Of a DNA stretch of 64,000 bases, positions 14,090-47,157 are shown piece by piece. Source of the stretch: Acidimicrobium ferrooxidans (GTDB lineage Bacteria; Actinomycetota; Geothermincolia; Fen-727; Anoxymicrobiaceae); assembly GCA_020723485.1 (NCBI GenBank), contig DYIU01000003.1:1-64000 (forward strand), given 5' to 3'. The notes under the pieces were generated by a model. The model was not told the DNA's origin and did not search any database. It was given only the letters and a program-made list of their open reading frames with translations. The position numbers and the translations under genes were made by a program. Position 1 is the stretch's first letter, and every line of letters begins with the position of its first letter.

Positions 14090-15045
14090 GAGCGCACCCC
14101 CTGGGCGCCCCCGACAGAGAGGCCTCCGGGCGAAGACCGCCTGGCCCTCCTGAGCATGTCTATGAAAGCCTCCAGCCTCGTTATGAGGCCGGCCTCAGCC
14201 GCGTGCTCGTCCAGGGTTATCGTCATGAGGGGGACCGAGCCCTCGCGCCCCAGCTGGTCCTCCAGCAGCGCGCCGACTATCGACCCGGGGCCGCAGGCGA
14301 ATGACGTCACGTAGAGTATCCCCGCCACCGAGCGCGTGCGGCTCCAGTGGAGGACGGCGCCCGCCAGCCTGCTCTCGTAGCCCCAGAATATCCGCCTGGA
14401 GAGGGTCTCGGCCTGCATCCTGGCCCGGCTCGGGACGACCTGGTCCACCGTTACCGGATTGGCTCCCATGCTCTTCACCCGGTCCAGGAGGCCGAGCGAC
14501 GCCCTGGAGTCATGCACGTTGTACAGGTGCCCGGCCACCCCAACCGTCATCCCCTCGGCCGCGGGTCTGGCCCTCGCCTGGACCCTGTGTTTCTCGAGCC
14601 CGTACAGGAGCCCGGCAACGGCCGACGCGGACGCGAGCCTCGTGCCTCCCAGCGCGCGTGCCACGGAGTACCACTCTCGGGCCCACAGGTATCGGCGGTC
14701 GGCAAGGTGGATCCTCGGCGCGAGGACGGGTGGAAGGTCCGGGTCGAGCGCCCGGGCCAGGTCGGGAAGGCCCATGAACTTGGGGCATGCCAGTGTGCCG
14801 TACTGCTCGCTCACCACCCTCGGCACCAGGACCACATCCACCCGTTCCTTCAACCATATTATGTGACCGGAGAACACCTTCACCGGCAGGCAGGTCTCGT
14901 TGTCGGCGTGCACCGCGCCGCTCGTGATGATGTCGGGCGTGGTCGCCTCCGACACGACGGCCTCCACGCCCAGCGTCTCCAGGAAGTTCAGCCAGTACTC
15001 ACCGTAGTGGTGGAAGAGCATTGCTCGCGGTATCCCCACCTTCAT
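14086..15045 (-). CDS. DUF2229/COG3580-type activase-related protein, copy 2
   Basis: This 319-residue protein is a paralogue of the gene at 11906, with MKVGIPRAMLFHHYGEYW at the start, HADNETCLPVKVFSGH (C52), LACPKFMGLPD (C87) and TSFACGPGSIVG (C251). An in-frame extension to 15093 exists, but the conserved family start is the ATG at 15045, which overlaps the TGA of gpsA (ATGA). It is therefore translationally coupled to glycerol-3-phosphate dehydrogenase. That coupling is the strongest local evidence that these activase-like proteins serve glycerolipid chemistry. Confidence 0.75.
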   Translation of the reverse strand: MKVGIPRAMLFHHYGEYWLNFLETLGVEAVVSEATTPDIITSGAVHADNETCLPVKVFSGHIIWLKERVDVVLVPRVVSEQYGTLACPKFMGLPDLARALDPDLPPVLAPRIHLADRRYLWAREWYSVARALGGTRLASASAVAGLLYGLEKHRVQARARPAAEGMTVGVAGHLYNVHDSRASLGLLDRVKSMGANPVTVDQVVPSRARMQAETLSRRIFWGYESRLAGAVLHWSRTRSVAGILYVTSFACGPGSIVGALLEDQLGREGSVPLMTITLDEHAAEAGLITRLEAFIDMLRRARRSSPGGLSVGGAQGVRS

Positions 15046-16151
15046 TCCGAGGCCACCCCCATCCCGCGTCGGAGGCCCAGCGAGGCCGCCCACTGCTCAC
15101 CCCGTCGTTGCCTCCCACGCTCCCCGGCCTGCTCGAGGCTGCAGGCGGCATCGAGGATTGCCCTCGGCTGGTCCGCTCCCGCCATCACCGACCACACGGC
15201 CTCGAGCAGGCGAAGCCTGAGGCCGAGGGCGCGGCTCCTGCGGACCGCCTCCTGCGCGGTCTGCGCTCCCTCCCGGACCCCCCGCACTTCCTCCCTGCTC
15301 CCCGCGCCGCCGGCGAGTATGCGCCCGAGGTCGTGGTTCCTGCTGAGCGGCGAGCCGCATGTCGCAACGAAGTCTCCTACACCGGCCGGCGTCATCACCA
15401 CGCCGGGGTCGCCCCCGACGGCCTCCGCGAAAACTGATGTCTCATCGAGCCCCCGCCAGATGAGGGTCCCCATCACGTTGTCCCCCCACCCCATGCCCGC
15501 CGCAAGCCCGCAGCCGACGGCGTAGACGTTCTTGAGGGCGCCCGCAGCCTGGGCTCCAAGGGGGTCATGGTGACCGCGAAGGCTCAGCAGTGGGTGCGAC
15601 AGTGCGGTGACCGCGCTCCTCACGTCCGCGGGCTCCACTCCGGCCAGCAGGGACACCGCCGGCATCCCCGCGCATATCTCGCGGGCGAGGTTCGGCCCGG
15701 AGAGCACCATCGCGTCACGGCAGGTCCGCCTCCCCTGAGAGCCCATTTCCTGTCGCCAGACCTCTATGCTCAAGAGCCCGCTGCCGACCTCCAGGCCCTT
15801 GGTCGCAAGGACAGTTGGCAGCCTTTCGGCGAAGAGGCCCTTCATGCTGCGGGCGACCTCCCGGGCCGCTTGCGAAGGCACCGCCACTATCACCCAGTCA
15901 GCTCCGTCGAGAGCGCGCTCGAGGGCGGTCGTCGGGAAGACGTTGGGCGGGAGCCTGAAATCGTCCAGGTACCGCTCGTTGGAGTGGAAACGCGTTATCT
16001 CCTCGCAGCTGTCGACCTCGGGGGTGTACAGGTTGACGCGGCGGAAGTTCTCCGCCTGGAGCGCGGCCAGGGTCGAGCCCCAGCACCCCGCGCCTATCAA
16101 GGCAAGGGTCGACCGCGCGCCGTCCGTTTGTTCGTCGTTTCTACCGCTCAT
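15042..16151 (-). CDS. gpsA: NAD(P)-dependent glycerol-3-phosphate dehydrogenase
   Basis: This enzyme of about 369 residues reduces dihydroxyacetone phosphate to sn-glycerol-3-phosphate, the backbone for phospholipids. The nucleotide-binding motif LIGAGCWGSTLA is near residue 18. ATKGLE, SGPNLAREI and the substrate-binding GALKNVYAVGCGLAAG motif follow in family order. I take the ATG at 16151 (MSGRNDEQ) because the dinucleotide fold starts soon after and GCAGGTG precedes it; the frame is open to 16259. It differs from typical GpsA in GWGDN for GLGDN and in a longer, Arg-rich C terminus. It lies 61 bases downstream of an anti-sigma gene and overlaps the DUF2229 gene. Confidence 0.88.
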   Translation of the reverse strand: MSGRNDEQTDGARSTLALIGAGCWGSTLAALQAENFRRVNLYTPEVDSCEEITRFHSNERYLDDFRLPPNVFPTTALERALDGADWVIVAVPSQAAREVARSMKGLFAERLPTVLATKGLEVGSGLLSIEVWRQEMGSQGRRTCRDAMVLSGPNLAREICAGMPAVSLLAGVEPADVRSAVTALSHPLLSLRGHHDPLGAQAAGALKNVYAVGCGLAAGMGWGDNVMGTLIWRGLDETSVFAEAVGGDPGVVMTPAGVGDFVATCGSPLSRNHDLGRILAGGAGSREEVRGVREGAQTAQEAVRRSRALGLRLRLLEAVWSVMAGADQPRAILDAACSLEQAGERGRQRRGEQWAASLGLRRGMGVASE

Positions 16152-30363: not shown

Positions 30364-30455
30364 CTCGCTTTACAATCCGCTGTACAGCAAGTATATTGAG
30401 ACTCACTGGTCATTAGGGCTATCCATATTAGCGACGCCGGTCAGGAGTGGCCCGG

Positions 30456-31280
30456 TTGAAGGTGCTGGCGCTGTACGAATCCATAACCGGCAACACTGCA
30501 TTCGCGGTGGAAGCCGTGAGGCTCGTGGTCGAAGGCCTCGGGCACGAGTGCACTGTTGCGCGGTACTCGAAGACCTCACCACGCGACCTCGCCGGGCAGG
30601 ACCTCTACTGCTTCGCCACCCCCGTGATGAGCTTCGCTCCGCTGGCCCCCGTCTGGAGGTTCCTCGGCCGGACGGCTGACGCCGGTGGCGCTCCCGCCTT
30701 CTTCGTGACCACCTGCGGAGGCTGGCCGGGCGCGGCGCACTCCCTGCTGGGATACAGGCTCCGTACCAGGGGATTCAGGGTGCTCGGCGACCATTACATG
30801 ACCTGCGCTGACAGCTGGCCGGTGTCACGCACTGCCTTCCGCCGGCTGTACGGCCGCCTCGACCTGCCGGGGCGGGCCTCCCTGTTGAAGCTCGCTGACT
30901 TCACCGGGGAGATGTGCGGGAGGGCGGAACGCCTGCACGTGGGTGCGCACGTCGAGTTGCCCCGGTACAGGCCGCGCCCCACTCTGACGCTCCCCCTCGC
31001 GCTCAACGCCCTCGGCGGAGGGCTTCGCCGCTCGTTCGGCAGGCGCACGGTCGACGCCGCCTCGTGCAACCGCTGCGGCCTTTGCGTGAAAGCGTGCCCG
31101 GTCTCCGCGGTCACACTCGAGGATGTCCCGGTCTTCTCCAGGTACTGCATAGGGTGCTGGGGATGCTTCAACGCTTGCCCGGAATCGGCGATAAGGTCCA
31201 GCCTGGCCGCCGCCTCGAGCCGCTATGCCGGTATCGCCGACGTGAAAGGCAGGCTGAGAGAGGCGGGCCTTCTCCCGTAG
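30456..31280 (+). CDS. Flavodoxin-ferredoxin fusion protein (EFR1-like)
   Basis: This 274-residue electron carrier has a flavodoxin-like domain with ALYESITGNTAFAVEAV at the start (FMN phosphate loop) and FFVTTCGGWPGAAHSLLGY. A C-terminal double [4Fe-4S] ferredoxin with CNRCGLCVKACP and CIGCWGCFNACP follows. This arrangement is the EFR1 ferredoxin family of anaerobes. I chose TTG 30456, eight bases after AGGAG, because a GTG at 30447 falls inside that ribosome site. Partners are not apparent. Confidence 0.83.
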   Translation: MKVLALYESITGNTAFAVEAVRLVVEGLGHECTVARYSKTSPRDLAGQDLYCFATPVMSFAPLAPVWRFLGRTADAGGAPAFFVTTCGGWPGAAHSLLGYRLRTRGFRVLGDHYMTCADSWPVSRTAFRRLYGRLDLPGRASLLKLADFTGEMCGRAERLHVGAHVELPRYRPRPTLTLPLALNALGGGLRRSFGRRTVDAASCNRCGLCVKACPVSAVTLEDVPVFSRYCIGCWGCFNACPESAIRSSLAAASSRYAGIADVKGRLREAGLLP

Positions 31281-31819: not shown

Positions 31820-32767
31820 GTGGCGCCGGGGACGTTCATGGCAGGCGAAAGAACCCATAAGAGCGACGAGCATTACCGCTCCACAAAGCGCAGGCTCTGG
31901 CTGGGGATAATCCTCGGCCTGGTCCTGGTAGCTGCCGAGGCCGTCTTCGGCATCATCACCGGCAGCCTCGCCCTTTTGACCGACGCCGCTCACAACACGG
32001 CGGACATACTCGCGGTGGGGCTTTCCCTGTTCGCCGTCTACATGATGGCGCGGGAGCCAACCGAGCGCCGGACCTACGGCTTCGGACGAGTCGGGATATT
32101 GACGGCGCTCGCCAACTCCGTGGGCCTCGTGGTCCTTGCCTGCATACTCGGCTACGAGGCGGTGCGCCGCCTCCAGCACGTGGAGCCTGTGAGTGGTTAC
32201 GCCGTATTCGTCGTCGCCCTGGTGGCGCTGGTCATAAACACCGTTGTCGCGCTGACGCTCTTCTCACACCGCCACGACCTCAACGTGAAGAGCGCGTTCC
32301 TCCACATGGTTATGGACGCGGCCGTGTCGCTCGGAGTGCTTGCGGCCGGGATAGTGATAATACTCACTGACTGGTATTACGCGGACCCCGTAGCAGCCCT
32401 GCTCATCAGCGTCTTCATCGTCTACGCGGCGTGGGGCATCATCAAGGAGGCCACGGACGTCCTCCTCGAATCTGTGCCGCGGGGCATTGACGCTTCGGCG
32501 GTCCAGGCCGCGGTGGAATCAATCCCGGGCGTGGAGGCCGTCCACCACCTGCACATATGGGAGCTGGGCTCCGGCGTCTACGCCATGAGCGGGCACGTGG
32601 AGGTCGAGGACCAGCGGGTCAGCCAGTGCTCGGGGATGATGGAAGAGATCGATCGGATGCTCAAGGACGAGTTCAACATAATCCACCCCACCATCCAGAT
32701 AGAATGCGCGACCGCCTGCCCCACAGCGCCGCCGGCTCCGGCCCCGGAGGAGGACGGCAGCGGGTGA
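31820..32767 (+). CDS. Cation diffusion facilitator family metal transporter
   Basis: This 315-residue inner membrane metal/proton antiporter exports divalent metals such as zinc. Six membrane helices are visible, with the metal site pairs in LTDAAHNTADILA (helix 2) and FLHMVMDAAVSLGV (helix 5). A C-terminal cytoplasmic domain carries AVHHLHIWELGSGVYAMSGHV. The C terminus ends with a cysteine pair (IECATACPTAP) and a Pro tail. The GTG at 31820 lies 10 bases after GGAGG; ATG 31838 is the alternative. It overlaps the following iron-sulfur gene by GTGA, so the two are coupled. Confidence 0.88.
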   Translation: MAPGTFMAGERTHKSDEHYRSTKRRLWLGIILGLVLVAAEAVFGIITGSLALLTDAAHNTADILAVGLSLFAVYMMAREPTERRTYGFGRVGILTALANSVGLVVLACILGYEAVRRLQHVEPVSGYAVFVVALVALVINTVVALTLFSHRHDLNVKSAFLHMVMDAAVSLGVLAAGIVIILTDWYYADPVAALLISVFIVYAAWGIIKEATDVLLESVPRGIDASAVQAAVESIPGVEAVHHLHIWELGSGVYAMSGHVEVEDQRVSQCSGMMEEIDRMLKDEFNIIHPTIQIECATACPTAPPAPAPEEDGSG

Positions 32768-33567
32768 GCCGGGGAAGGCTCTCGTACTGGCTTACCCTCA
32801 AGCTGTGGCCCCTCGGCCGCCTCGAGAAGAAGCTCGCGAGCCTGCCGGGCCTCTCGCGCGCGGTCGGCCCTATGCTGTGGAACGAGAGGAACCTGGACGC
32901 CACCTACGTCCCCATAGGCGAAGCGGTAGACGTCGAGCCGGGCAGCGTCGTCCCGTATCAGCTCATCACCGAGCTCGTGAGCAGGGCCTCTCACCGGTTC
33001 ATCCTCAGCGGCTGCCTCTGCAGGACAGCGGCGAACTGCGAGGATTTTCCACCCGGTGTTGGCTGCGTCTTCCTCGGGGACGCTGCGGCCGACATAAGCC
33101 CCGAGCGCGGCCGCCCCGCGCGGGTCGAAGAAACCCTGGAGCACGTCTCGAGAGCCCGTGAGCTCGGCCTGATGCCCTGCATCGTGCACTCGACCTTCGA
33201 CGCCAGGTTGTTCGACATAGATTACCGGAGGATGCTCGCGATCTGTTTCTGCTGCAACTGCTGCTGTACCTTCCGCACCGGCATGGTCGGGGGGCCCGGG
33301 GCCTACAGGGACCGCATAGTGAGGCTGCCGGGCCTGACGATGCGCGCGGTCGGCGACTGCTCGGGCTGCGAGAAGTGCGCGCGGGCCTGCTTCCTGGGCG
33401 CAATAAGCGTGACACGCGACGGCCCGTCTTTCGCCGACTTCTGCAAGGGATGCGGGCGCTGTGCCGCGGCCTGCCCGCGCCGCAACATCCGGGTGGCCTT
33501 CGAGCCGGGCGTCGACACCCGGCAGGTCCTGTTCGACAGGATAAGCTCGCGGACCGATATCGAGTAG
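32764..33567 (+). CDS. Cysteine-rich ferredoxin-like protein, copy 1
   Basis: This 267-residue protein has 18 clustered cysteines. C84, C86, C92 and C101 form the N-terminal group (CLCRTAANC). ICFCCNCCC places six cysteines at 161-168. Two C-terminal [4Fe-4S] motifs (C199, C202, C205, C209 and C227, C230, C233, C237) follow the ferredoxin pattern. The gene at 37651 has the same cysteines at almost identical positions. The first residues (RLSYWLTLKLWPLGRLEKK) may be membrane-facing. I do not know a characterised member. Overlap with a metal exporter gene suggests a role in metal or redox homeostasis, which is inference. Confidence 0.72.
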   Translation: MSRGRLSYWLTLKLWPLGRLEKKLASLPGLSRAVGPMLWNERNLDATYVPIGEAVDVEPGSVVPYQLITELVSRASHRFILSGCLCRTAANCEDFPPGVGCVFLGDAAADISPERGRPARVEETLEHVSRARELGLMPCIVHSTFDARLFDIDYRRMLAICFCCNCCCTFRTGMVGGPGAYRDRIVRLPGLTMRAVGDCSGCEKCARACFLGAISVTRDGPSFADFCKGCGRCAAACPRRNIRVAFEPGVDTRQVLFDRISSRTDIE

Positions 33568-33702
33568 GCAGAAAAGGTGAGCCCCGCCTCACGAGCAGGT
33601 GAGAGCATCCTCCCGCCGCGGGCGACGCATCAATAATTCGTTTTCCGGCGCGAATTCCCACAAATTGGTAATGGACGCCGGCTTCATACTCACCGATATT
33701 AG

Positions 33703-33714
33703 ACACGTACGTGT
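33703..33714. promoter_or_regulatory. Perfect 12-bp palindrome, possible operator
   Basis: ACACGTACGTGT lies 29 bases upstream of the zinc-ribbon gene, in a 176-base gap with no open reading frame. A palindrome of this length near a likely promoter is a candidate repressor site, but there is only this one copy. Confidence 0.25.
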
Positions 33715-33743
33715 AAACCGCACTGAATACCAGGGTGAGACAG

Positions 33744-34301
33744 ATGTCGCTGTGCGGACACTGCGGAGACACAGTGAACGATGGCTCCCTCAGCTGCCCG
33801 AGCTGCGGCGAGCCGATGGACAGCTCCATCCCGTGCGCCGGCTGCGGATTCCCGGTGCAGCGCGGCGCGGAGCGGTGCTCGTCGTGCGGCCGATACCTGG
33901 GCCAGCCCTACGCATACCGTACCTCGCGGCTCGAGCTCCAGAGCAGCGCGGGCGACCTGGGCGTCGAGCCGGGCTTCGGATACGACACCGCCAACGCCTG
34001 GCCGCCGTCCCGCCAGAGGAAGCGAAGTTTCGGGCTCGTGTCTCTGGGAGCCAGGAGGACCGACCCCCTCTTCCTCGTGGCTCTTCTCTGCGCTTTTGCC
34101 TCCCTGGCGTTCTCCTGGGCTCCCAGGTTCAACGTGTCACTGGCATGCGTGGCACTCTCGTTCTCGCTCATGGGTTACCAGCACTATTTCAGCTACAAGC
34201 ACCGCGGCAGGTACGGAGGCCTGTGGTTGAACTACCTGGCGACAGTTGTCGGCATATGCGCTCTCGTCGCCGCGGTCGGCGTAAGCGCTTTCCTCGTCTG
34301 A
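33744..34301 (+). CDS. Double zinc-ribbon membrane protein
   Basis: This 185-residue protein has two N-terminal zinc ribbons (C4, C7, C18, C21 and C31, C34, C45, C48) and three predicted membrane helices in the last ~85 residues (VALLCAFASLAFSWA, VSLACVALSFSLMG, LATVVGICALVAAVGVSAFL). Such proteins are often annotated as DUF4190-like or zinc-ribbon proteins and have no established role. ATG 33744 is placed after GGTGAG; GTG 33735 would add three residues. It converges on rnpB. Confidence 0.74.
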   Translation: MSLCGHCGDTVNDGSLSCPSCGEPMDSSIPCAGCGFPVQRGAERCSSCGRYLGQPYAYRTSRLELQSSAGDLGVEPGFGYDTANAWPPSRQRKRSFGLVSLGARRTDPLFLVALLCAFASLAFSWAPRFNVSLACVALSFSLMGYQHYFSYKHRGRYGGLWLNYLATVVGICALVAAVGVSAFLV

Positions 34302-34302
34302 C

Positions 34303-34396
34303 CGCAAAATCGGGGTCAGGTCGTTTTGTTGCATTTCATGAGGACTACCCGGCCTTGGATTCATATGCAACAAAACGACCTGACCCCGATTTTGCG
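34303..34396. repeat. REP-like inverted-repeat element, copy 3
   Basis: Perfect 32-bp arms (34303-34334 and 34365-34396; core GGGGTCAGGTCGTTTTGTTG) flank a 30-bp spacer. This copy begins 2 bases after the stop of the zinc-ribbon gene and ends 1-2 bases from the 3' end of rnpB. It is the longest and most perfect copy, with the outer pairing extended by CGCAAAATC. Confidence 0.9.
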
Positions 34397-34397
34397 C

Positions 34398-34770
34398 GGG
34401 GGACAGCCACCCTGTAAGCCGGATTCTGTGCCGCCCGGAAAGGGCGGCGGTGGCCATCCATCTAGGACCCGCGTTGCCGCGGGCCTCCAGCTGCCTACCC
34501 GGGAGTCGTAACGCGGCGGGCCACCGCTCCTCCCCTATTCGGCATCGCTCCGGGTGGGGCTTGCCAAGCCGGCCCGTCACCGGACCGCTGGTGGTCTCTT
34601 ACACCACCGTTTCAGCTTAACCTTCCGCCCGCGCGGGCGGCGGGTCTTTTCTTTTCTGTGGCGCTTTCCGTCGGGTCACCCCGCCTGGACGTTATCCAGC
34701 ACCCTGCCCTGTGGAGTCCGGACTTTCCTCGAGGCCGTAAGGCCTCGCGACCACCCGGATGACTGTTCCC
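34398..34770 (-). ncRNA. rnpB: RNase P RNA, bacterial type A
   Basis: The catalytic RNA of RNase P, which matures tRNA 5' ends, is about 373 nt here. On the minus strand the conserved 5' core is GAGGAAAGTCCGGACTCCAC, followed by CAGGGTGCTGGATAACGTCC and GGCGGGGTGACCCGACGGAA. The distal conserved parts are AGCTGAAACGGTGG and, at the 3' end, ACAGAATCCGGCTTACAGGG. The outer helix P1 pairs GGGAACAGUCAU at the 5' end with GUGGCUGUCCC at the 3' end, which sets the limits to within a few bases. It has its own promoter box at 34777 and abuts a long inverted repeat. Confidence 0.95.
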
Positions 34771-34776
34771 TGACCC

Positions 34777-34782
34777 ATTGTA
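34777..34782 (-). promoter_or_regulatory. -10 box of rnpB
   Basis: TACAAT on the minus strand lies seven bases upstream of the first base of helix P1 (about 34770), the expected distance from -10 box to transcription start. TTCGACA is present further upstream, but at 20-21 bases, so the -35 box is unclear. Confidence 0.6.
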
Positions 34783-34971
34783 GCACGGCGCAGGCGGCCG
34801 TTCTGTCGAAGAAACGGTCTGTGTATCCGACCAAATAGTCAATTCGGGGTATGTACGCGCCTGCTTGCATTGTGGTAATAATTCTCGTGGTACTGGATGG
34901 ATGCGCAGGTGCGGAAGCCGGCCCCTCACCGCCGGAGTGCACGGGGCGATGCTTCATAAAGGGAGGGCGCT
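34783..34971. other. Intergenic region between rnpB and the S15/CocE gene
   Basis: This 189-base segment is moderately AT-rich and holds the upstream promoter region of rnpB on one strand and that of the hydrolase gene on the other. TTGCAT and TGGTAC are 17 bases apart (about 34866-34894, plus strand) as a weak promoter. No gene is visible. Confidence 0.3.
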
Positions 34972-36840
34972 ATGCGGCGTTGCATTCGTACGGTTGTCGG
35001 ACTCATCCTCGTTATCCTTCTCGTGTTGCCGGCCTGCGGCGCGCTGGCCCGCCCCGTGAAGAAAAAGAAGCCCCCGGTGCGCAAGACCGCCGTTGCGTCG
35101 ACTTACGAGGTAAAGGTCACGACCGAGAAGTGGGCCATGCCAGACGGGGTGAAGCTGCCCGTCTCCGTCTTCTCCCCCGTTCCCTCCACCCCGGGAGAGA
35201 AGTTCCCCGTGGTGGTCTTCACTCACGGCTGGATGTTGAACAAGGTGATGTTCGAATCCCAGGCCTTGAAATACGCGAAACGCGGTTACGTGGGGGTCAC
35301 GTACACGGTCAGGGGATGGGGAGGGGCCGAAGGTGACATCGGCTGCGTCGGCCCCGACTGCGAGATGAAAGACTTGAGCAGCATCATAACCCTCGTTTCC
35401 GAGGACCCGCGTTTCCCGGTCCTCAAGGACGCCCGCGGTCCCGTGGTCGGGTCCACCGGATACTCGCTCGGGGGCCTGACCTCCTACCTGATCGCGCCGC
35501 GGAAGAACCCCAGGCCGGGAGACCCCGGAGACCCGCGTGTCCGGGCCGTGGTTCCCATGCACGGGGCGACCGACCTGCAGTACTCACTCATGCCCAACGG
35601 CGTGGGTAAAGCCTTCTGGGTCCTCATGCTGGTGGCCGGCAGCTATTTCGGCAACCTGTCGGCAACGGCGACCAACCTGATGCTCATCCTGGCCGACACC
35701 AGCACTTCCGGCTTCGAGAAGCTGCTGTCCGCCTTGAACGTCCTTTCCATCCTGTCCACCCCCATCAACCGGGTGAGCAGCGAGTTCGCACGGATCGTGG
35801 GCATCGCGCTCCAGAGACGGGTGGCAGAAATGGGCCAGTTGAAGAGTTTCCTGGACCCGCGCTCGACGAAGTGGTGGTGTGACGAAGAGAGGGACGGTGC
35901 GGTCGAGCACCCCATCACGGTGCCCACCCTGATGACCACCAGCTGGAACGACGACCTATTCAATCCCAACGAAGCGCTCTGGGCCTTCAACACGATGATA
36001 GACGCCCCGAAACGGATTATCGTAACCAGCGGCGGCCATGCCGGCGGATACCGGATGCAGTTCCCGGGAATCCAGCCCGAGCCCGATCCCGAGCTCGAGT
36101 ACGTGGAGAAGGAGTCCGAGGAGTGGTTTGACCACTTCCTCAAGGGGATAGACAACGGGGTCGAGCGCGATCCCGCGGTTTCCTACTGCCGGCTCTGGGA
36201 CAGGAGCAGCTACGGCACCTCGAGCGTCTGGCCCCCCGCGGGCACGAGCGATGTGACGCTGTACCCCGGTGGGTCCACAGGCTTCAGGGAGGGGTCGCTC
36301 TCGACTGCGCCCGCCGCCGGTTCTCCTCCCGACATCCTTGTCAACTGGGGCTTCAGCGGGTCCATCTCCCTGCCCTACTTCAACGACATGCCCAAAATGG
36401 CGGGCGTCAACCAGGAACTGAACATGCCCGAGAAAGTGGACCTCGTCAACATGCCGTTCCAGCGTTACAGCTATCTCACCGCACCCTACGACCGCGACCT
36501 CCTCATCCAGGGAACGCCTCGCCTTTCCTACAGCTATCAGTGTTCAAGCCAGTTCGCGCAGCTGATACCGAGGCTCTACGAGGTCGCGCCCGACGGCTCG
36601 CAGACCCTGATAAGCCGGGGCTGGTACGAGGGATACGGCGAGATGACAGGGACCAGGCTGGACGGCTCGGGCTTCGAGATGATGACCTGCTGCTACAAGC
36701 TCAGGGCGGGGAGCAGGTTGAAGCTGGAGATACAGACTTCGGACCTGCTGCAGAGCTGGCCCGTCTGGGGCCTCTCTTTCGTGAACATATTCCACGACGG
36801 ACCCGGCGCGACGCGCCTGGTTCTTCCAGTGGCCCCGTGA
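34972..36840 (+). CDS. Secreted S15/CocE-family hydrolase
   Basis: This 622-residue exported serine hydrolase belongs to the X-prolyl dipeptidyl-peptidase/cocaine esterase group. A signal peptide with a possible lipobox (VLPAC, Cys22) is followed by the alpha/beta domain. That domain holds VVVFTHGWMLNKVMF, the nucleophile elbow TGYSLGGLTS (S165), the acid in TTSWNDDLFN and the His in TSGGHAGGYR. A C-terminal jelly-roll-like domain is typical of the family. GGGAGG precedes the ATG. It probably releases dipeptides or cleaves esters outside the membrane; which of these cannot be decided. Confidence 0.8.
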   Translation: MRRCIRTVVGLILVILLVLPACGALARPVKKKKPPVRKTAVASTYEVKVTTEKWAMPDGVKLPVSVFSPVPSTPGEKFPVVVFTHGWMLNKVMFESQALKYAKRGYVGVTYTVRGWGGAEGDIGCVGPDCEMKDLSSIITLVSEDPRFPVLKDARGPVVGSTGYSLGGLTSYLIAPRKNPRPGDPGDPRVRAVVPMHGATDLQYSLMPNGVGKAFWVLMLVAGSYFGNLSATATNLMLILADTSTSGFEKLLSALNVLSILSTPINRVSSEFARIVGIALQRRVAEMGQLKSFLDPRSTKWWCDEERDGAVEHPITVPTLMTTSWNDDLFNPNEALWAFNTMIDAPKRIIVTSGGHAGGYRMQFPGIQPEPDPELEYVEKESEEWFDHFLKGIDNGVERDPAVSYCRLWDRSSYGTSSVWPPAGTSDVTLYPGGSTGFREGSLSTAPAAGSPPDILVNWGFSGSISLPYFNDMPKMAGVNQELNMPEKVDLVNMPFQRYSYLTAPYDRDLLIQGTPRLSYSYQCSSQFAQLIPRLYEVAPDGSQTLISRGWYEGYGEMTGTRLDGSGFEMMTCCYKLRAGSRLKLEIQTSDLLQSWPVWGLSFVNIFHDGPGATRLVLPVAP

Positions 36841-36849
36841 GGACATCCG

Positions 36850-37476
36850 TCAGGACCGCTCCCCCTCGAGGCCGTCGAGGTGGCTCCTGATGTTCATGGA
36901 CTCCATGTTCGAGAACTTGCCCATGTGATTGAGGACGGATATCGAGGCGAGGTCGACCGTCAGGCGGAAGATGTTGGAGAGCGGAAGGCCGATCACCTTG
37001 GCGAGTATCGCGCGGATGGGCCCTCCGTGGCTCGAGGCGAAGATGAAGCCGTCGGAGTTGCCGGCGCAAGCCTCGTCGTACCACCACATGGAGCGCTCCT
37101 GGACCGAGGCGAGGGTCTCCCCGTCGGGGATGGTCACCGCCTCCGGGTTCTTCGTCCACTGGCGCAGTATCTCCCCGTCCTGCTTGATTATCTCCTCGAG
37201 CATCTGGCCGTCCCACCGGCCGAGGTCTATCTCTCTCAGTCGCTCGTCGACCACGACCTCGAGCCCGTGACTCGCGGCGACCATCTCGGCGAGCGCGAGG
37301 CAGCGGGACAGCGGGCTGGAATAGACCACGTCTATCCTGCTCTCCCGCAGGTGGTCGGCGACCCGGCGGGCCTGCTCGAGCCCCAGCTCGTCGAGCGGGA
37401 CGTCGGCCGTACCGGCGTACCGGCCCTCGGCGTGCCAGGCGGTGCGCCCGTGCCTGACCAGAATGACTTTGCTCAA
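36850..37476 (-). CDS. Histidine phosphatase family protein (phosphoglycerate mutase-like)
   Basis: This 208-residue phosphatase has the phosphohistidine motif LVRHGRTAWHAEGRY at the start, SPLSRCLALAEM at about 55-66, and the second catalytic His in FASSHGGPIRAIL at about 147-159. Members act on phosphosugars, cobalamin precursors or other small phosphates. It starts with TTG 37476 after AGGAGAAACG. The C terminus contains FSNMESMNIRSHLD. It converges on the hydrolase gene and ends 10 bases away. No partner suggests its substrate. Confidence 0.85.
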   Translation of the reverse strand: MSKVILVRHGRTAWHAEGRYAGTADVPLDELGLEQARRVADHLRESRIDVVYSSPLSRCLALAEMVAASHGLEVVVDERLREIDLGRWDGQMLEEIIKQDGEILRQWTKNPEAVTIPDGETLASVQERSMWWYDEACAGNSDGFIFASSHGGPIRAILAKVIGLPLSNIFRLTVDLASISVLNHMGKFSNMESMNIRSHLDGLEGERS

Positions 37477-37544
37477 CGTTTCTCCTCTCGAACGCGGCCG
37501 GGAATAATTATATCCGACCCGGCCGGCCGGACTGTTCTTTCTTC

Positions 37545-37573
37545 TTGTAAGTGGCAGTGGTAATCAATATAAT
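37545..37573 (+). promoter_or_regulatory. Sigma-70 promoter of the redox cluster
   Basis: TTGTAA (37545-37550) is followed after 17 bases by a perfect TATAAT (37568-37573), placing the transcription start near 37580, about 70 bases before the ferredoxin-like gene. This is the best vegetative promoter match in the window. Confidence 0.7.
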
Positions 37574-37580
37574 ACCCATC

Positions 37581-37593
37581 AGTCAAATTGACT
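37581..37593. promoter_or_regulatory. Palindromic operator candidate at the transcription start
   Basis: AGTCAAATTGACT is a perfect 6-bp inverted repeat around a central A, covering the predicted start site of the promoter at 37545. A repressor bound here would block initiation. The MerR-TetR fusion at 42798 is the only regulator nearby and is a candidate, but no matching copy is seen at its own promoter. Confidence 0.45.
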
Positions 37594-37650
37594 CGCGGGT
37601 GAAGGCACCCGGGCGGTAGGCTGGGTCGGCAGGCTATCCAGGGGGGTACC

Positions 37651-38448
37651 ATGGGCAGGAGCAAGAGGAGTTTCGACAGGGTCCTTCGCCAGTACAAGCA
37701 CAAAGACTTCGTATTCAAACTGACCCGGGTCCCGGTGCTCAATACGCTCGGGCGTCTTGTCATCAAACCGAGTGAGACGACGCTCAGCTACGTGCCGGTG
37801 TACGAGAACGTCGAGCTTCCTGAAGGCACTGTTGCCCCCATCTCCGTGATAGAGCACTTCATCAACGAGGCGAGCGACCACCTCATCCTCTCGCGCTGCC
37901 CCTGCCGCAGCGAGAACGGGTGCAAGGATTTCGACCCGTATTTCGGGTGTACTTTCCTGGGCCCGGCGGTGCGCAGGGTCGACCCGGAAGTCGGCAGGCT
38001 GGTCTCCCGCGAGGAGGCTCTCGAGCACCTGCGCCAGGCAACGGAGGCCGGCCTGGTCTCCTGCCTGGGGGCTTTCAAGGGAGACGCCCTCATGATGGGT
38101 ATCAGGGACCACAAGCACCTGATGACCATCTGCCACTGCTGCCCCTGCTGCTGCATAAGCACGGCCATGCCCCTCGCAGGCAAGGAGGCGCGGGACCTCC
38201 TGGTGAGGATGGAGGGCGTCACCGTCGAGATAACGGAGGACTGCAACGGGTGCGGGCGCTGCGTCGACATGTGCATATTCGACCAGATCACCATCGTGGA
38301 CAAGAAGGCTGTCATCGGTGAGGAGTGCAAGGGCTGCGGCCGCTGCGCGATGGTGTGCAAGCGCGACGGCGTGAGGATAACGATTGAAGATCCAGACTAC
38401 GTCAACCGGTGCATAGAGCGCATCGGCTCGAAGGTGACTGTCAGGTAA
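37651..38448 (+). CDS. Cysteine-rich ferredoxin-like protein, copy 2
   Basis: This 265-residue paralogue of the protein at 32764 has all cysteine groups in register: C83, C85, C91, C100 (CPCRSENGC), then ICHCCPCCC (C161, C163, C164, C166, C167, C168), then two [4Fe-4S] motifs (C198, C201, C204, C208 and C226, C229, C232, C236). It begins with a basic segment (GRSKRSFDRVLRQYKHKDF). The GGGGGG ribosome site and the strong promoter suggest good expression. It probably feeds electrons to the FAD oxidoreductase that starts 18 bases downstream. A characterised homologue is not known to me. Confidence 0.75.
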   Translation: MGRSKRSFDRVLRQYKHKDFVFKLTRVPVLNTLGRLVIKPSETTLSYVPVYENVELPEGTVAPISVIEHFINEASDHLILSRCPCRSENGCKDFDPYFGCTFLGPAVRRVDPEVGRLVSREEALEHLRQATEAGLVSCLGAFKGDALMMGIRDHKHLMTICHCCPCCCISTAMPLAGKEARDLLVRMEGVTVEITEDCNGCGRCVDMCIFDQITIVDKKAVIGEECKGCGRCAMVCKRDGVRITIEDPDYVNRCIERIGSKVTVR

Positions 38449-38465: not shown

Positions 38466-40016
38466 ATGCCGCCGGAGAAATACGACGTCGTTATCATCGG
38501 GGCCGGCGTCGGCGGGTTGACCTGCGCGAACTACCTGGTGCGGCAGGGCAGGAAGGTGCTGGTGCTCGAGCACGGGAAGGCCGTGGGGGGCAATATCCAG
38601 GGCATCCGGCGCAAGGGGTTCTTCTTCGATGCAGGGTCACAGTCCACCGAGAACGTTGGCATTCTCTTCCCGATCCTGGAAGAGCTCGGGCTTTACGATC
38701 CAGCGCAGTGGCACCGTGCGGACTTCCGCTGGGTGACCCCCGACTGCGATGTGGTCCTGCGCGACTTCCCGCAGATAAGGGCGGACTTCAAGGGGTTCTT
38801 CCCCGACTCCGCGGCGGACATCGACGCATGGTTCGATTTCATCGAGCCCGGGTGCGAGGTCATGCGGAACATGATGGGCGCGCTCCCGTTTCCGCTCCTC
38901 AAGCGCGGGCTCGAAAAGTACCGGGTGCTCGCCAGGATGGCCAGGGTCGGACTGCCCATGGTCAGGCTGATGCCCGGCACCCTGACCGGGCCGGGGAGCG
39001 AGAAGGGCAGGGAGATCTTCTCCGACGAGAGGCTGGCGTTCCTGTTCGGGCAGTTCGGCGACCCGAACATGCTGCTCTTCATGTACTTCTCCTTCTGGTA
39101 CAGCTTCCTGCACGATTACACGTACCCGAGGGGCGGGCTGGTCGCGCTTGCCGACATGCTGGCCGCCAGCCTGTTGGAGCACGGCGGCGAGATACGGCTT
39201 TCATCGACGGTGGACCGCGTGCTGACCTCCGGCCGGACAGCGACCGGCGTCGAGACCGACGGCGGAGAGCGCTACTTCGCGGACAAGGTGGTGAACACCG
39301 GCAATCCGAAGAGGCTCGTGACCGAGATGTGCGACCCGGCGCTTCTCCCTTCCAGGTACCGTGAGACGATAAGGAACGGACCCGTGAGCATCTCGGTGGT
39401 CACAGCGTTCCTGGGGCTCGACATGACGGACGAGGAGTTGGGCGACGCATTGAAGTCGAGCCACACTCTCTACTGGCGGGTCTATGAGACCTCCGAGAGC
39501 GTCTACGACCCCGAGATACATCGCAAGAACTGGGCGATGGTCTCCTGGGTCTCCAGGCGCGACAAGACACTCGCGCCGGAGGGCAAGAACTCTATCATCG
39601 TTCAGATACCGGTGCCCTACGACTGGATGAACGGTTGGGGTACCGGCTCGGCTGACGCCACGGCGCGCAACGAGGCTTACCGGGAGCTCAAGAAAAAGGT
39701 GCTGGACGAAATAATCGAGGACATGGAGTACCTCATCCCCGGCCTGCGCGGCAGGCTCGACCACAAGGAACTGGCGACGCCCCGCACGCTCGCGCGCTAT
39801 ACGCTCAATCCCCAGGGCTCCATCATGGGATGGTCGTACGACATGTACCGAACGCCTCTGTTCGGGCGTTTCGCCAGGTTCAAGACACCGGTAGAGAACC
39901 TCTTCCAGGCCGGCCACTACTCCATCTGGCCCGGCGGCATCGTTTTCTCCGCGCTGACCGGCAAACTGGTCGCCGAGGGAATGTACGAGGGCTTCGCGAA
40001 GGCCCTCCTCTGGTAA
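38466..40016 (+). CDS. FAD-dependent oxidoreductase, phytoene desaturase/CrtI-like, copy 1
   Basis: This 516-residue flavoprotein has the N-terminal dinucleotide fold VVIIGAGVGGLTCANYLV, the GGNIQGIRRKGFFFDAG motif seen in carotenoid desaturases and isomerases, and the C-terminal signature NLFQAGHYSIWPGGIVFSAL. Carotenoid desaturases, isomerases and retinol saturases share this fold, so it may oxidise or reduce double bonds of an isoprenoid or other lipid. ATG 38466 follows GCGGGGGGGG; the frame is open upstream, but those residues overlap the previous gene. It is more distant from the two copies at 44-47 kb than those are from each other. Confidence 0.8.
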   Translation: MPPEKYDVVIIGAGVGGLTCANYLVRQGRKVLVLEHGKAVGGNIQGIRRKGFFFDAGSQSTENVGILFPILEELGLYDPAQWHRADFRWVTPDCDVVLRDFPQIRADFKGFFPDSAADIDAWFDFIEPGCEVMRNMMGALPFPLLKRGLEKYRVLARMARVGLPMVRLMPGTLTGPGSEKGREIFSDERLAFLFGQFGDPNMLLFMYFSFWYSFLHDYTYPRGGLVALADMLAASLLEHGGEIRLSSTVDRVLTSGRTATGVETDGGERYFADKVVNTGNPKRLVTEMCDPALLPSRYRETIRNGPVSISVVTAFLGLDMTDEELGDALKSSHTLYWRVYETSESVYDPEIHRKNWAMVSWVSRRDKTLAPEGKNSIIVQIPVPYDWMNGWGTGSADATARNEAYRELKKKVLDEIIEDMEYLIPGLRGRLDHKELATPRTLARYTLNPQGSIMGWSYDMYRTPLFGRFARFKTPVENLFQAGHYSIWPGGIVFSALTGKLVAEGMYEGFAKALLW

Positions 40017-42733: not shown

Positions 42734-42762
42734 TTGACAATGGTTATGGAATTCATCATTAT
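42734..42762 (+). promoter_or_regulatory. Sigma-70 promoter of the MerR-TetR regulator
   Basis: A perfect TTGACA (42734-42739) is separated by 17 bases from CATTAT (42757-42762), with the start of transcription expected near 42769. The spacer is normal, not the 19-20 bases of classical MerR-activated promoters. Confidence 0.62.
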
Positions 42763-42797
42763 TGGTCCATGGCAGGCCAGGAGGGGAAGGCAACTTC

Positions 42798-43748
42798 ATG
42801 ACAACCACAAAAAACTCCAGGGATGAGCACGACCAGATGAAGATGAGCCAGCTGGCTGCGGCGAGCGGGCTCACGGTGAGCACCATAAAGTTCTACATGT
42901 CACAGGGGCTGCTGCCGAGGCCGAGGAAGGCCAAGCCCAACGTGGCCTTCTACGACGAGGCGTTCCTCAAGCGGCTCCTCATCATAAAGAAGATGCGCGA
43001 CGAGGGCCTCTCGGTCCACAGCATCAAGGTCATACTCGACAAGTACGCGTTCAGCAAGGTGACCGAGTGGGAGGCCTTCAAGAAGCAGGCGAAGAAGAAG
43101 GACACCCGCGACCTCGAGGAAGAGGAGCGGCTTGCAACACTCTCGGGGGAGCAGAGGCGGACCGACGCGATACTGGAGGCGGCGTTCCAGGTCTTCTCCG
43201 TGAGGGGCTACCACAACGCGACGGTGGATGACATCGCCCAGCAGGCGGGCGTGAGCAAGGGCACCTGCTACCAGTACTTCTCCGGCAAGGAGGAGATCTT
43301 CCTTGCGACGATGGACCGCACCATGGACCAGCTTTTCGCCGAGGCCGAGGCCACCGCCGCCGGGATGACCAACGCGCTGGCCCGGATGGGCATGCAGGGA
43401 CTGACGTTCGTGTCGCGGTTCAAGGAGCTTCAGTTCATGTTCTTCGGCCTGTACACCGAGGTGCTCGGGGGCAACGAGCGGCTGAAGAAGAAGGCCGGGG
43501 AGCTCTTCGACAAGGTCGCCGCCTTCATAGCGAGGGACATAGACCTGGGCATCGAGCAGAAGCTGTTCCGGAAGGTCGACCCGATGAACGTCGGATACAC
43601 CATGCTCGGCATCGCCCAGGCGGTGGGCAACCTGTCCCTGACGAACGACGACTTCGACGCGGTCGACTTCTTCGTCGGCCTTATGGATTTCATGCAGCAC
43701 GGCATAATGGCCGACAACACGCCGAAGCCCGCCAGGAAGAAAAAGTAG
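42798..43748 (+). CDS. MerR-TetR fusion transcriptional regulator
   Basis: This 316-residue regulator has two different DNA-binding domains. Residues about 16-85 are a MerR-type winged helix (MSQLAAASGLTVSTIKFYMS, GLLPRPRK, FLKRLLIIKKMRDEGLSVHSI). A charged linker then leads to a TetR-type helix-turn-helix at about 122-168 (ILEAAFQVFSVRGYHNATVD, VSKGTCYQYFSGKEEIF) and a TetR ligand-binding domain to the end. Residues before MTTT at 42798 are in frame, but the start codon has a better position there, and the frame holds one continuous protein, so this is not a frameshift artefact. It precedes two flavoprotein genes that it may regulate. Confidence 0.85.
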   Translation: MTTTKNSRDEHDQMKMSQLAAASGLTVSTIKFYMSQGLLPRPRKAKPNVAFYDEAFLKRLLIIKKMRDEGLSVHSIKVILDKYAFSKVTEWEAFKKQAKKKDTRDLEEEERLATLSGEQRRTDAILEAAFQVFSVRGYHNATVDDIAQQAGVSKGTCYQYFSGKEEIFLATMDRTMDQLFAEAEATAAGMTNALARMGMQGLTFVSRFKELQFMFFGLYTEVLGGNERLKKKAGELFDKVAAFIARDIDLGIEQKLFRKVDPMNVGYTMLGIAQAVGNLSLTNDDFDAVDFFVGLMDFMQHGIMADNTPKPARKKK

Positions 43749-43867
43749 CGAAGCCCGGTGCGCGGTCGCTCGACCGCGGGGCGCCGTTGGGGCGGCGGGC
43801 CGAAAAAAAAACACCGCGTGTCTACGATTCGGTCAGATTCACTTGCCGAAAAATAAGCCGTTTTGCG

Positions 43868-43897
43868 TTTACAACCCGGACTTTCCGTTACTAGTAT
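43868..43897 (+). promoter_or_regulatory. Promoter of the oxidoreductase/micropeptide operon
   Basis: TTTACA (43868-43873) and TAGTAT (43892-43897) are 18 bases apart, giving a start near 43904 and a leader of about 67 bases. Each box is one or two bases off consensus. Confidence 0.45.
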
Positions 43898-43932
43898 TCT
43901 ACGTATCAGTCATTCTGGCTTACTATTTGTTT

Positions 43933-43949
43933 CCGCGGGTCCCCCGCGG
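43933..43949. promoter_or_regulatory. GC-rich hairpin or operator before the ribosome site
   Basis: CCGCGGG-TCC-CCCGCGG is a perfect 7-bp inverted repeat ending 7 bases before the AGGAGGTG ribosome site of the next gene. It may be a dyad operator for the TetR half of the adjacent regulator or an RNA hairpin near the ribosome site. Confidence 0.4.
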
Positions 43950-43970
43950 CTATGCGAGGAGGTGAAGGTG

Positions 43971-45476
43971 GTGGCCGACTATGACGTTATCGTGATAGGC
44001 GCCGGGCTGGGTGGGCTGACATGCGGCTCGCTCGTTGCCAGGGAGGGTCTGAAGACTCTGGTCCTGGAACAGTCCGACATCATCGGCGGCTGCTGCTCGA
44101 CGTTCGAGGTGGACGGGTACAAGTTCGACGTGGGCGCATCGATAGTCGAGGTCATTCAGCCGCTCGAGAGGTTCTTCGAGATGATGGGCGGGAAGATATC
44201 CGACTACCTCGACCTCATCCCCTGCGACCCCATATACTCGTTCATCACCGACGACGGCAAGAGGTTCAGCGTTCCGACGGACATCGACGAGACGACCGAG
44301 CTCATCAAGCGCATCGCGCCGGAGGACGTCGAAGGGTGGAAGAGGTTCTGCAGGGTGGGCCTCGAGATGATCGAGGACATGATGGACGCCGTGATGCTCT
44401 CCCCCATGAACACGTTCTCGGAGGCCATGCTCCTCGCCGCCAGGAACCCGCAGATCATGAAGTTCGCTCCCACGTTCCTGCGGACCCACCAGGGGGTCAT
44501 CCGGTCGTTCTACAAGAACCCGGTGATGATACAGTCGGCCGCCTTCCAGTCTTACTTCGCCGGGGCGCCGCCGGAGCTCGGCAGCGGGGTGTTCGGTTAC
44601 ATCGCGCTCTCCGAGCACCTGGGTATCTACTACCCGCGCGGCGGGATGATCGGCATCCCCAACGGCATTGCAAAAGCGGGCGCCGACCACGGCATGGAGG
44701 TAAGGACCGACGTCAAGGTGGAGAAGCTCCTCATCGAGAACGGGACCGCAACGGGCGTCCGGCTCGAGGACGGGACGACCATAACCGCGAAGCTGGTGGT
44801 CTCGAACCTGAACGCCCAGGTGACCTACTTCAAGCTGGTCGGCCCGGAGAACCTGCCGAGGTGGGCCGTCAAGGCGATGGCCAGCTACCAGAACTCCATG
44901 CCCTGCCCGATGATCTACGTCGGGCTCGACAAGAAGCCCGACCTCGAGGCGCACCACACCGTGGTGACCAGCACGCTCGAGTCGATGAACAACGTCTGGA
45001 ACAACTACTACAAGCTGGGGATAATCCCCGACACCGCGATGAGCCTGGTGTGCTGGCCCACCGAGGCCGACCCATCGCTCGCGCCGGAGGGAAAGCACAT
45101 ACTGAACTTCCTGTGCAACGCACCGGCGCCGTACTCGCCCCGGGGCGACAACTGGGACAGGCTCAAGGGCTGGTACAAGGAGGCGGCGATCAAGGAGCTC
45201 GAGACCTACGTGCTGCCGGACGTCCGCGACCACATAGAGTACATCCAGGTCTCGACGCCGCTCGACTTCGAACGGAGGCTCCTGCACCCCGAGGGCGGGA
45301 TTTACGGGCTTTTCAGCGACATGACGACGCTCGCGATGTTCAGGCCGCGCTCGAGGTCCAGGGCGGTGAAGAACCTCTACCTGACCGGCAGCTCAACCCA
45401 CCTCGGGGGCGGAGTCCCCACGACGGTGGCGTCCGGAATCGTCACATCGAAGTACATCGTCAAGGACCACGGATAA
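43971..45476 (+). CDS. FAD-dependent oxidoreductase, CrtI-like, copy 2
   Basis: This 501-residue flavoprotein starts with DYDVIVIGAGLGGLTCGSLV and carries IIGGCCSTFEVDGYKFDVGA at about 40-59, a two-cysteine variant of the desaturase FAD motif that the copy at 45646 shares. The conserved end is NLYLTGSSTHLGGGVPTTVA. I chose GTG 43971, eight bases after GGAGG; GTG 43968 and 43962 are alternatives. It is closer to the copy at 45646 than to the copy at 38466. It should act on a hydrophobic substrate with conjugated or isolated double bonds. Direction (desaturation or saturation) cannot be told. Confidence 0.8.
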   Translation: MADYDVIVIGAGLGGLTCGSLVAREGLKTLVLEQSDIIGGCCSTFEVDGYKFDVGASIVEVIQPLERFFEMMGGKISDYLDLIPCDPIYSFITDDGKRFSVPTDIDETTELIKRIAPEDVEGWKRFCRVGLEMIEDMMDAVMLSPMNTFSEAMLLAARNPQIMKFAPTFLRTHQGVIRSFYKNPVMIQSAAFQSYFAGAPPELGSGVFGYIALSEHLGIYYPRGGMIGIPNGIAKAGADHGMEVRTDVKVEKLLIENGTATGVRLEDGTTITAKLVVSNLNAQVTYFKLVGPENLPRWAVKAMASYQNSMPCPMIYVGLDKKPDLEAHHTVVTSTLESMNNVWNNYYKLGIIPDTAMSLVCWPTEADPSLAPEGKHILNFLCNAPAPYSPRGDNWDRLKGWYKEAAIKELETYVLPDVRDHIEYIQVSTPLDFERRLLHPEGGIYGLFSDMTTLAMFRPRSRSRAVKNLYLTGSSTHLGGGVPTTVASGIVTSKYIVKDHG

Positions 45477-45645: not shown

Positions 45646-47157
45646 ATGTACGACTACGATGCCGTCGTGATTGGCGCCGGCCTGGGGGGCCTCTCCTCGG
45701 CCGCGATCCTTGCCAGGAACGGCTTCAAGACGCTCGTGTGCGAGAACACGAATCACATTGGAGGATGCTGCTCTACGTACGAGGAGAACGGCTACAGCTT
45801 CGACATAGGGGCGAGCATCGTCGAGCTCTCGTGGATAATCGACGAGCTGTTCGAGAAGCTGGGAAGGAAGGTGTCCGATTACATCGACTGGATACCGGTG
45901 GACCCCATATACGGCTTCCTCACCGCGGACGGCAAGCGCTTCACCTACCCGGTCGACCCGGATGAGACACGAAAGGTCATCACGGGCTTCTCCGAGGCGG
46001 ACGGCCCCAGGTGGGACCGGTTCCAGAAGCTGGGCCAGTCGGCTATTCGCGAGGCATTCGGGCGGATAATGACGACGCCTTTTGCCACGTTCGGTGACGC
46101 CATGAAGGTAATGGCCAAAGCTCCGAGTATGGTCAAGCTGGTCAAGTACATGGGGATGAACTTCGAGAGCACCCTGAAGAGCTTCTTCTCGAGCGAGCAG
46201 GTACGTGCCTCGATGAGCCTGCAGTCCTATTTCATCGGCCTGCCCCCCGCCCTCTGCCCTGGATACATCGCTTTCCTCGCCTATGCCGAGCACGAGGGGA
46301 TCTACTACCCGCGCGGCGGGATGGTGCAGATACCCGGATCGATCGCGAAGATATTCGGCGAGTACGGGGGCGAGATAAGGTTCGACACGAGGGTCAAGCG
46401 CGTTCTCATGGACGGCGGCAGGGCCGCCGGCGTGGAGCTCATGGACGGCACCCAGATAAGGAGCCGGTTCGTGGTGAGCAATATCAACGCGAAGACCCTG
46501 TACCTGGAGCACGTAGGCCGCGAGAACCTCCCGGCCTGGGCGGTGAAGGCTGTCGAGAGCTACGAGGTGTCGATACCGGCGCCGATGATAATGCTGGGGC
46601 TCGACACGAGGCCGGACCTCGACGCGCACCACACGTTCTGCTACACGACGATCGAAGAGATGAACGCCATCTGGTTCGAGGACTACGCGTCGCGGAAGCT
46701 GCCGGACCGTGGCTTCATGCTCGTCTCCTGGCCGACCCACGCGGACCCGTCGCTGGCGCCGGAGGGGCACCACTGCCTCAACATGGTCACGTTCGCGCCG
46801 TACGAGCTCGCCGACGGCGACTGGGACGACCTGAAAGAGCGCTACCTTGAGACACAGCTCGACTTCCTCGAGCACCGTTTCGGCCTGAAGGGCATCCGGG
46901 ACCACATAACAATGGCGCGGGTCAGCACCCCGAAGGACTTCGCGAGGATGCTGCTGCACCCCGGCGGCGCGGTGTACGCCCTGCAGAACGACATAATGGC
47001 AAGCGCGTTCTTCCGGCCGAGACTGCGCTCGAAGGCGGTCAAGGGGCTCTACCTGACCGGCGCCTCGACCCATTTCGGTGGCGGCGTCCCCCCCACCATC
47101 GGGTCCGGGATCGCTGCGGGAAGCCTGATGCTCGAGGACTTCGGCCGGGTGATGTGA
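45646..47157 (+). CDS. FAD-dependent oxidoreductase, CrtI-like, copy 3
   Basis: This 503-residue flavoprotein, clearly paralogous to the one at 43971, starts DYDAVVIGAGLGGLSSAAIL and has HIGGCCSTYEENGYSFDIGA and the shared middle motif EGIYYPRGGMVQIPGSIAKI. It ends GLYLTGASTHFGGGVPPTIG. GGAGGGACG precedes the ATG, and it begins 14 bases after the micropeptide. The three genes 43971-47157 therefore form one operon. Two paralogues side by side may form a heterodimer or act in sequence on one lipid. Confidence 0.82.
   Translation: MYDYDAVVIGAGLGGLSSAAILARNGFKTLVCENTNHIGGCCSTYEENGYSFDIGASIVELSWIIDELFEKLGRKVSDYIDWIPVDPIYGFLTADGKRFTYPVDPDETRKVITGFSEADGPRWDRFQKLGQSAIREAFGRIMTTPFATFGDAMKVMAKAPSMVKLVKYMGMNFESTLKSFFSSEQVRASMSLQSYFIGLPPALCPGYIAFLAYAEHEGIYYPRGGMVQIPGSIAKIFGEYGGEIRFDTRVKRVLMDGGRAAGVELMDGTQIRSRFVVSNINAKTLYLEHVGRENLPAWAVKAVESYEVSIPAPMIMLGLDTRPDLDAHHTFCYTTIEEMNAIWFEDYASRKLPDRGFMLVSWPTHADPSLAPEGHHCLNMVTFAPYELADGDWDDLKERYLETQLDFLEHRFGLKGIRDHITMARVSTPKDFARMLLHPGGAVYALQNDIMASAFFRPRLRSKAVKGLYLTGASTHFGGGVPPTIGSGIAAGSLMLEDFGRVM

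Follow-up and report, generated by a model that had tools for sequence, protein, structure and literature searches.

The described systems closest to the two genes considered here are the 2[4Fe-4S] bacterial ferredoxins (PF00037; Clostridium structures 1fdn and 1fca) and the EFR1 family ferrodoxin (NF038196), in which a ferredoxin pair forms the C-terminal part of a two-domain protein. The genes, q1 (37651..38448, + strand) and q2 (32764..33567, +), lie in a 64,000-nucleotide stretch of Acidimicrobium ferrooxidans DNA, here called the window (positions 1 to 64,000 of contig DYIU01000003.1, assembly GCA_020723485.1). The C-terminal ~55 residues of q1 carry two CxxCxxC...C motifs and superpose on the clostridial ferredoxins with a root-mean-square deviation of 1.2–1.3 Å over 54 residues; the ferredoxins, in contrast, lack the ~190-residue N-terminal region of q1 and q2, with its ten further conserved cysteines. 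EFR1, the best NCBIfam match, is likewise matched over residues ~191–244 only (model positions ~179–231 of 242), at 38.4 and 34.7 bits against a cut-off of 75. A true EFR1-family protein is encoded 1.5 kb upstream of q2 (30447–31280, +; 77.6 bits against the same cut-off).

We suggest that q1 and q2 are probably cytosolic multi-cluster electron-transfer proteins of anaerobes, in which an N-terminal domain with two interleaved metal sites is joined to a 2[4Fe-4S] ferredoxin. This reading builds on the observed sequences, the composition and autonomy of the domains, their conservation, the joint loss of sets of cysteines, and gene order. Which reactions an anaerobe can couple depends on its electron carriers, and the two proteins represent a large, multi-copy family that is annotated by its ferredoxin tail alone across Desulfobacterota, Asgard archaea, Actinomycetota, Chloroflexota and methanogens; because the N-terminal domain is in none of the domain and structure libraries searched, its putative cofactors are invisible to genome annotation.

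Two paralogues with a conserved cysteine-rich domain

The initial annotation had recognized q1 and q2 as paralogues, and both open reading frames are present and homologous over their full length (end-to-end alignment, 33% identity, E=1e-46). The q1 protein, a short form of the family, has 265 amino acids, 20 cysteines and an ATG start, and q2 has 267 amino acids, 19 cysteines and a GTG start. In q1, whose numbering is used here for residues C83–C168, the motif C83-x-C85-R86...C91...C100 is encoded at 37897..37950, the block C161-x-C163-C164-x-C166-C167-C168 (CHCCPCCC) at 38131..38154 and the ferredoxin part at 38230..38385; the q2 counterparts are C84-x-C86-R...C92...C101 (33013..33066), the block CFCCNCCC (33244..33267) and a ferredoxin part at 33346..33501 (all +). 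The strings ICHCCPCCC and ICFCCNCCC do occupy residues 160–168, as first reported. The annotation had also counted 18 cysteines in register: the shared register is real, against a chance expectation of ~1.4 pairs for 19–20 cysteines in ~266 residues, while the count is 19 (four N-terminal, C138 and C139, six in the block and eight in the ferredoxin part), 18 of which are conserved family-wide in a 51-sequence alignment.

The ferredoxin part of both proteins is ordinary. Two standard ferredoxin motifs had been claimed, and Fer4 (PF00037) scores above its cut-off of 21.1 bits in q2 (30.6 bits) as well as in q1 (31.5 bits), over residues ~194–245. An AlphaFold2 model of full-length q1 (predicted local distance difference test, pLDDT, 90.8; predicted template-modelling score 0.88) found PDB neighbours by Foldseek and VIA for the ferredoxin part only (~residues 183–254), and matches of a full-alignment profile to PDB were limited to the same part. 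The six-cysteine run lies outside the ferredoxin pattern, as had been proposed, with no Pfam, NCBIfam or PDB match beyond the ferredoxin part. Nor is it a chance run. The columns of the N-terminal motif and the six block cysteines are invariant in the 51-sequence alignment, and all six are kept in all of the ~66 short-form proteins retrieved from the window's own class in a search that was not seeded on the motif; only distant relatives lose block cysteines, and they do so in a patterned way. One further search for relatives was partly seeded on CHCCPCCC, and block conservation is quoted only from searches unseeded on the block.

The same unseeded search placed the short forms in 14 of 198 genomes of the phylum, all within that class. 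The host genome alone has 11 close copies, q1 and q2 included, plus about a dozen others that are longer or more distantly related, and q2 has orthologues in five other genomes (52–69% identity). Relatives were found in Anaerolineae, Desulfobacterota, SAR324, KSB1, Lokiarchaeota, Methanobrevibacter, Methanomethylophilaceae, Cetobacterium and Acetoanaerobium; in the phylum of Desulfatibacillum they occur in 36 of the 59 genomes sampled, with up to 30 copies each (25 in Desulfatibacillum alkenivorans), and one Lokiarchaeote has 16. The hosts known by name are anaerobes, and those relatives that are annotated bear the label '4Fe-4S binding protein' or '4Fe-4S dicluster-binding protein'.

Throughout the family the unit is an N-terminal CxCR-(loop)-C...C, followed ~60 residues later by CxCCxCCC and then by the 2[4Fe-4S] ferredoxin; the spacing CxCR-x4-C-x8-C plus the block accounts for the ten family-conserved cysteines of the N-terminal domain. 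In the long forms a winged-helix-like region precedes this unit; its TrmB and MarR_2 matches (L092, L102) are weak and fall below the Pfam cut-offs. Stand-alone forms of 193–225 amino acids, lacking both the ferredoxin and C100, occur in three single-contig Chloroflexota genomes of 1.4–1.5 Mb (L302, L304 and L306, ~1399–1977, +), and elsewhere the unit is fused in frame to an NAD-dependent epimerase/3beta-HSD (L220, L241) or to a pyridoxal phosphate-dependent racemase-like domain (L243). Given the stand-alone forms, the N-terminal extensions and the in-frame fusions, the cysteine-rich part is an independent domain, and its small Chloroflexota form offers a compact target for structural work.

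Some further architectures were set apart from this argument. At L244 (3306–4952, –) an IS200-type Y1 transposase domain is in frame with the domain and ferredoxin (549 amino acids), which may be chance read-through and was not used as fusion evidence. Frames of 582 amino acids in L009 and L155 were considered as exporter–q2 fusions and rejected, Pfam showing no exporter domain in these long open frames of GC-rich DNA. Variants in L295, L296, L297 and L300 combine an N-terminal CQFCHQHGEGKKWYL-like motif with a CNCDRADC-type block.

Joint loss of cysteines across the family

From an alignment of 329 members we kept 259 that share less than 80% identity, and in these the presence of every cysteine was scored. 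Six are kept in 97–100% of members: C83, C85 and C163 in all 259, C161 in 257, C168 in 253 and C100 in 252. The other four, C91, C164, C166 and C167, vary, and do so together; C91 is present in 231 of the 259, a set deliberately enriched for forms that lack these four, so that their percentages in it are not natural frequencies. Among the 28 members without C91, C164 is also missing in 27 (Fisher p=8e-25), C166 in 27 (p=2e-17) and C167 in 23 (p=7e-15), and in 22 members all four of these are absent and all six core cysteines present (e.g. blocks CNCDRWHC, CNCHPDTC and CSCESPEC). These 22 come from Desulfobacterota, SAR324, Asgard archaea and Actinomycetota, the Chloroflexota cases being mixed patterns. 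A test of pairs on trees (FastTree, and IQ-TREE with a site-mixture model) built without the scored cysteine columns does not depend on these percentages, and there C91 and C164 changed in step in about six independent contrasts and in opposite directions in no contrast (median p 0.031); the correlations with positions 166 and 167 run mostly in the same direction but are not significant on the trees. In about ten members the C91 scored as present may be another cysteine next to C100, an error that would work against the correlation.

Because C91 is lost with C164, C166 and C167 while the core stays, the best reading of CxCCxCCC is a pair of interleaved half-sites, both of which draw their remaining ligands from the N-terminus: block positions 1, 3 and 8 (C161, C163, C168) group with C83, C85 and C100, and positions 4, 6 and 7 (C164, C166, C167) with C91. 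The result predicts which cysteine binds which cluster. We infer that both sets bind iron-sulfur clusters. The second set, here site B, has as many ligands as a standard cubane (four) and most likely holds an additional [4Fe-4S] cubane, with which some lineages dispense; single substitutions at 166 and 167 are mostly Asp, His or Ser, which are tolerable at one corner of a cubane. The core consists of two similar half-motifs, CxC...C and CxC....C, beside Arg86 (conserved in 185 of 191 members), and would bind a further putative iron-sulfur cluster.

Gene surroundings, the proposed carrier role and its alternatives

Downstream of q1, 17 bp separate its stop codon from the ATG of a flavin adenine dinucleotide (FAD)-dependent oxidoreductase of the Amino_oxidase/CrtI type (38466..40016, +; PF01593, E=4.8e-27), in agreement with the flavoprotein gene first noted there. 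The pair recurs at L014 (68% identity), and the two genes are near each other in L017 and L111. Farther along lie a double-domain regulator with an N-terminal MerR and a TetR DNA-binding domain (42762..43748, +), orthologues of which stand beside q1-type genes in L009, L017 and L026, and two further Amino_oxidase-type flavoproteins (43863–45476 and 45646–47157, +), with orthologues near q1-type genes in L010, L014, L015, L017, L018, L023 and L026. Related q1-type genes of Actinomycetota (loci L009, L010, L014, L015, L017, L018, L023, L026 and L027) have a varying mix of amine-oxidase/CrtI-like flavoproteins, a GlcD-type FAD protein with a CCG protein, and the MerR-TetR regulator. Across the superfamily the operon neighbours are diverse, with flavoproteins, short-chain dehydrogenases/reductases (SDRs), thiolases and TetR regulators the most frequent; the enzymes that most often adjoin members are CrtI/amine-oxidase-type, GMC, flavin mononucleotide-binding and GlcD-type flavoproteins and SDRs. 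Such diversity fits dedicated carriers for many oxidoreductases, without proving them.

The q2 gene has different company. It is translationally coupled to a CDF-family cation exporter (31820..32767, +; PF01545, E=3.5e-42; TIGR01297), its GTG start lying inside the exporter's stop codon in a 4-bp overlap, GTGA. The overlap with a metal exporter gene reported in the initial annotation is therefore real, while the link is confined to three genomes of q2's own family (the order is kept in L009/L164 and L155/L165) and is no wider trait of the protein family. As the CDF link is limited to this one q2 clade, metal export was rejected as a general function.

In the scheme that we infer for the electron-transfer function, its direction of flow and its partners, a partner flavin or NAD oxidoreductase, in q1's case most likely the FAD oxidoreductase next to it, would exchange electrons with the core or the site-B cluster; the ferredoxin clusters would receive them from the N-terminal clusters and hand them on to the soluble ferredoxin pool or another carrier. 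The chain would be shorter in members that lack site B, and the window's own genome would keep about twenty such carriers near different oxidoreductases. Several points weigh against this account. Its two-site model does not account for a core of six cysteines instead of four, and the core is not absolutely fixed: two rare lineages, Anaerolineae members in L207 (2989–3978, –; block GNCCACCS) and L203 (2979–3989, –; block GNCHPAYS) lose C161 and C168. The carrier role rests on the pattern of diverse oxidoreductase neighbours, which it fits, and among 106 immediate neighbours the commonest Pfam family appears only five times, no partner being conserved family-wide; the neighbour survey has no background control set and is used qualitatively only. 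The joint loss of C161 and C168 in L207 and L203 also hints at a pair within the core.

The initial annotation had proposed that the CxCCxCCC run could hold an unusual iron-sulfur or other metal cluster. An extra metal is probable; that the run itself forms one six-cysteine iron-sulfur or mixed-metal cluster is very improbable. Its six cysteines are invariant in close relatives and match no known pattern, as such a cluster would have it, but across the 259 members the third, fourth and fifth are repeatedly and independently lost with the distant C91, whereas the first, second and sixth stay with C83, C85 and C100, and a single cluster would not drop half its ligands yet keep the rest along with three from the N-terminus. 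The domain might instead be a metallochaperone, sensor or store for a non-iron metal (Zn, Cu or Cd), and q2 might serve the exporter that it overlaps by GTGA and adjoins in three genomes; closely packed cysteines are also found in metallothioneins. We give this little credence: the exporter link belongs to one q2 clade only and is absent from the q2 orthologue of G090, most members adjoin redox enzymes, nearly all have the ferredoxin module in frame, and the named hosts are anaerobes rich in iron-sulfur enzymes.

An iron-sulfur redox sensor or regulator, whose N-terminal clusters would control binding to DNA or protein, seems quite unlikely too. The TrmB and MarR_2 matches of the long-form extension and the TetR and MerR-TetR regulators beside some members point that way, but the winged helix-turn-helix scores fall below the Pfam cut-offs and the window proteins, like all short forms, lack the extension, which therefore cannot explain the shared domain. 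A catalytic core is unlikely, if not negligibly so. Here the near-invariant six cysteines would hold a non-standard cluster, either a double-cubane [8Fe-9S] or a [4Fe-4S] of non-cubane form, at which a substrate is reduced with electrons supplied from site B and the ferredoxin part. Their arrangement in two similar half-motifs with a conserved Arg, their retention where site B is gone, and the five of six that persist in the ferredoxin-less forms (all but C100) are consistent with it; against it stand the lack of any sequence relation to CCG/HdrB and of a Pfam match to the double-cubane HGD-D family, the diversity of neighbours, which argues for a carrier, and the few members in which C100 or the C161/C168 pair is dispensable. 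In its boldest form, to which we give a small though real chance, the N-terminal domain would be a new fold whose core and adjacent Arg hold such a cluster, and a detachable site B, a cubane, would run through the same nine-residue block; if so, the core cluster would do two-electron or very-low-potential chemistry.

Two other gene sets of the window were noted on the minus strand. Positions 10791–15093 hold two tandem gene pairs, each a DUF2229 (CoA enzyme activase-related) protein with an unmatched partner of ~370 amino acids, together a duplicated 2-hydroxyacyl-CoA-dehydratase-activator-like set, and 5702–10775 hold two adjacent, similar proteins of ~840–870 amino acids, the one at 8172–10775 with acyltransferase and GPAT_C domains.

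Comparison with known families and structures

Residues 1–190 of q1 and q2 match nothing meaningfully among the Pfam and NCBIfam models or the PDB sequences, and neither did 50 N-terminal domains compared with Pfam; in profile searches the block fell in no known family or sequence of solved structure. The isolated N-terminal domain was modelled at medium quality (pLDDT 80.6), giving a best Foldseek E of 0.58 and no VIA Z of 2 or more, and because of that quality we do not claim a new fold. Matches of the N-terminal profile to PPR proteins were repeated 4-bit matches of one helix, and meaningless. Full-text literature searches for the motif, whether in pattern form or as peptides, found no relevant paper, and those on double-cubane and uncharacterized iron-sulfur families, on the class (Geothermincola/Solincola) and on Desulfatibacillum brought up nothing about the family.

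Of the known anaerobic electron-transfer proteins, the CCG domain of HdrB/HdrD/TfrB (PF02754; non-cubane [4Fe-4S]) is similarly rich in cysteine, and genes of the family often have a CCG protein nearby, as in several Actinomycetota loci; in Methanobrevibacter a family gene is two genes downstream of tfrB, whose product combines Fer2, Fer4 and CCG. A relation was rejected: 50 members gave no Pfam match, hhalign returned a probability of 0.2% (E 0.34), and the cysteine spacing is unrelated. The HGD-D (double-cubane) family gave no Pfam match to q1, q2 or the 50 N-terminal domains, and the mercury-methylation ferredoxin HgcB (NF040864) matches q1 at 20.6 bits against an equivalog cut-off of 99.

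The N-terminal domain is undescribed in the libraries and open-access papers searched, and its sequences are already in the databases under generic names. The '4Fe-4S binding' proteins, such as that of Cetobacterium somerae (WP_240221497.1), belong to the same superfamily and carry ICNCCGCCC and CxCR...C...C motifs; unlike q1 and q2, they are ~350–430 amino acids long and have an N-terminal extension, and they are named, in an annotation without function, for their ferredoxin part only.

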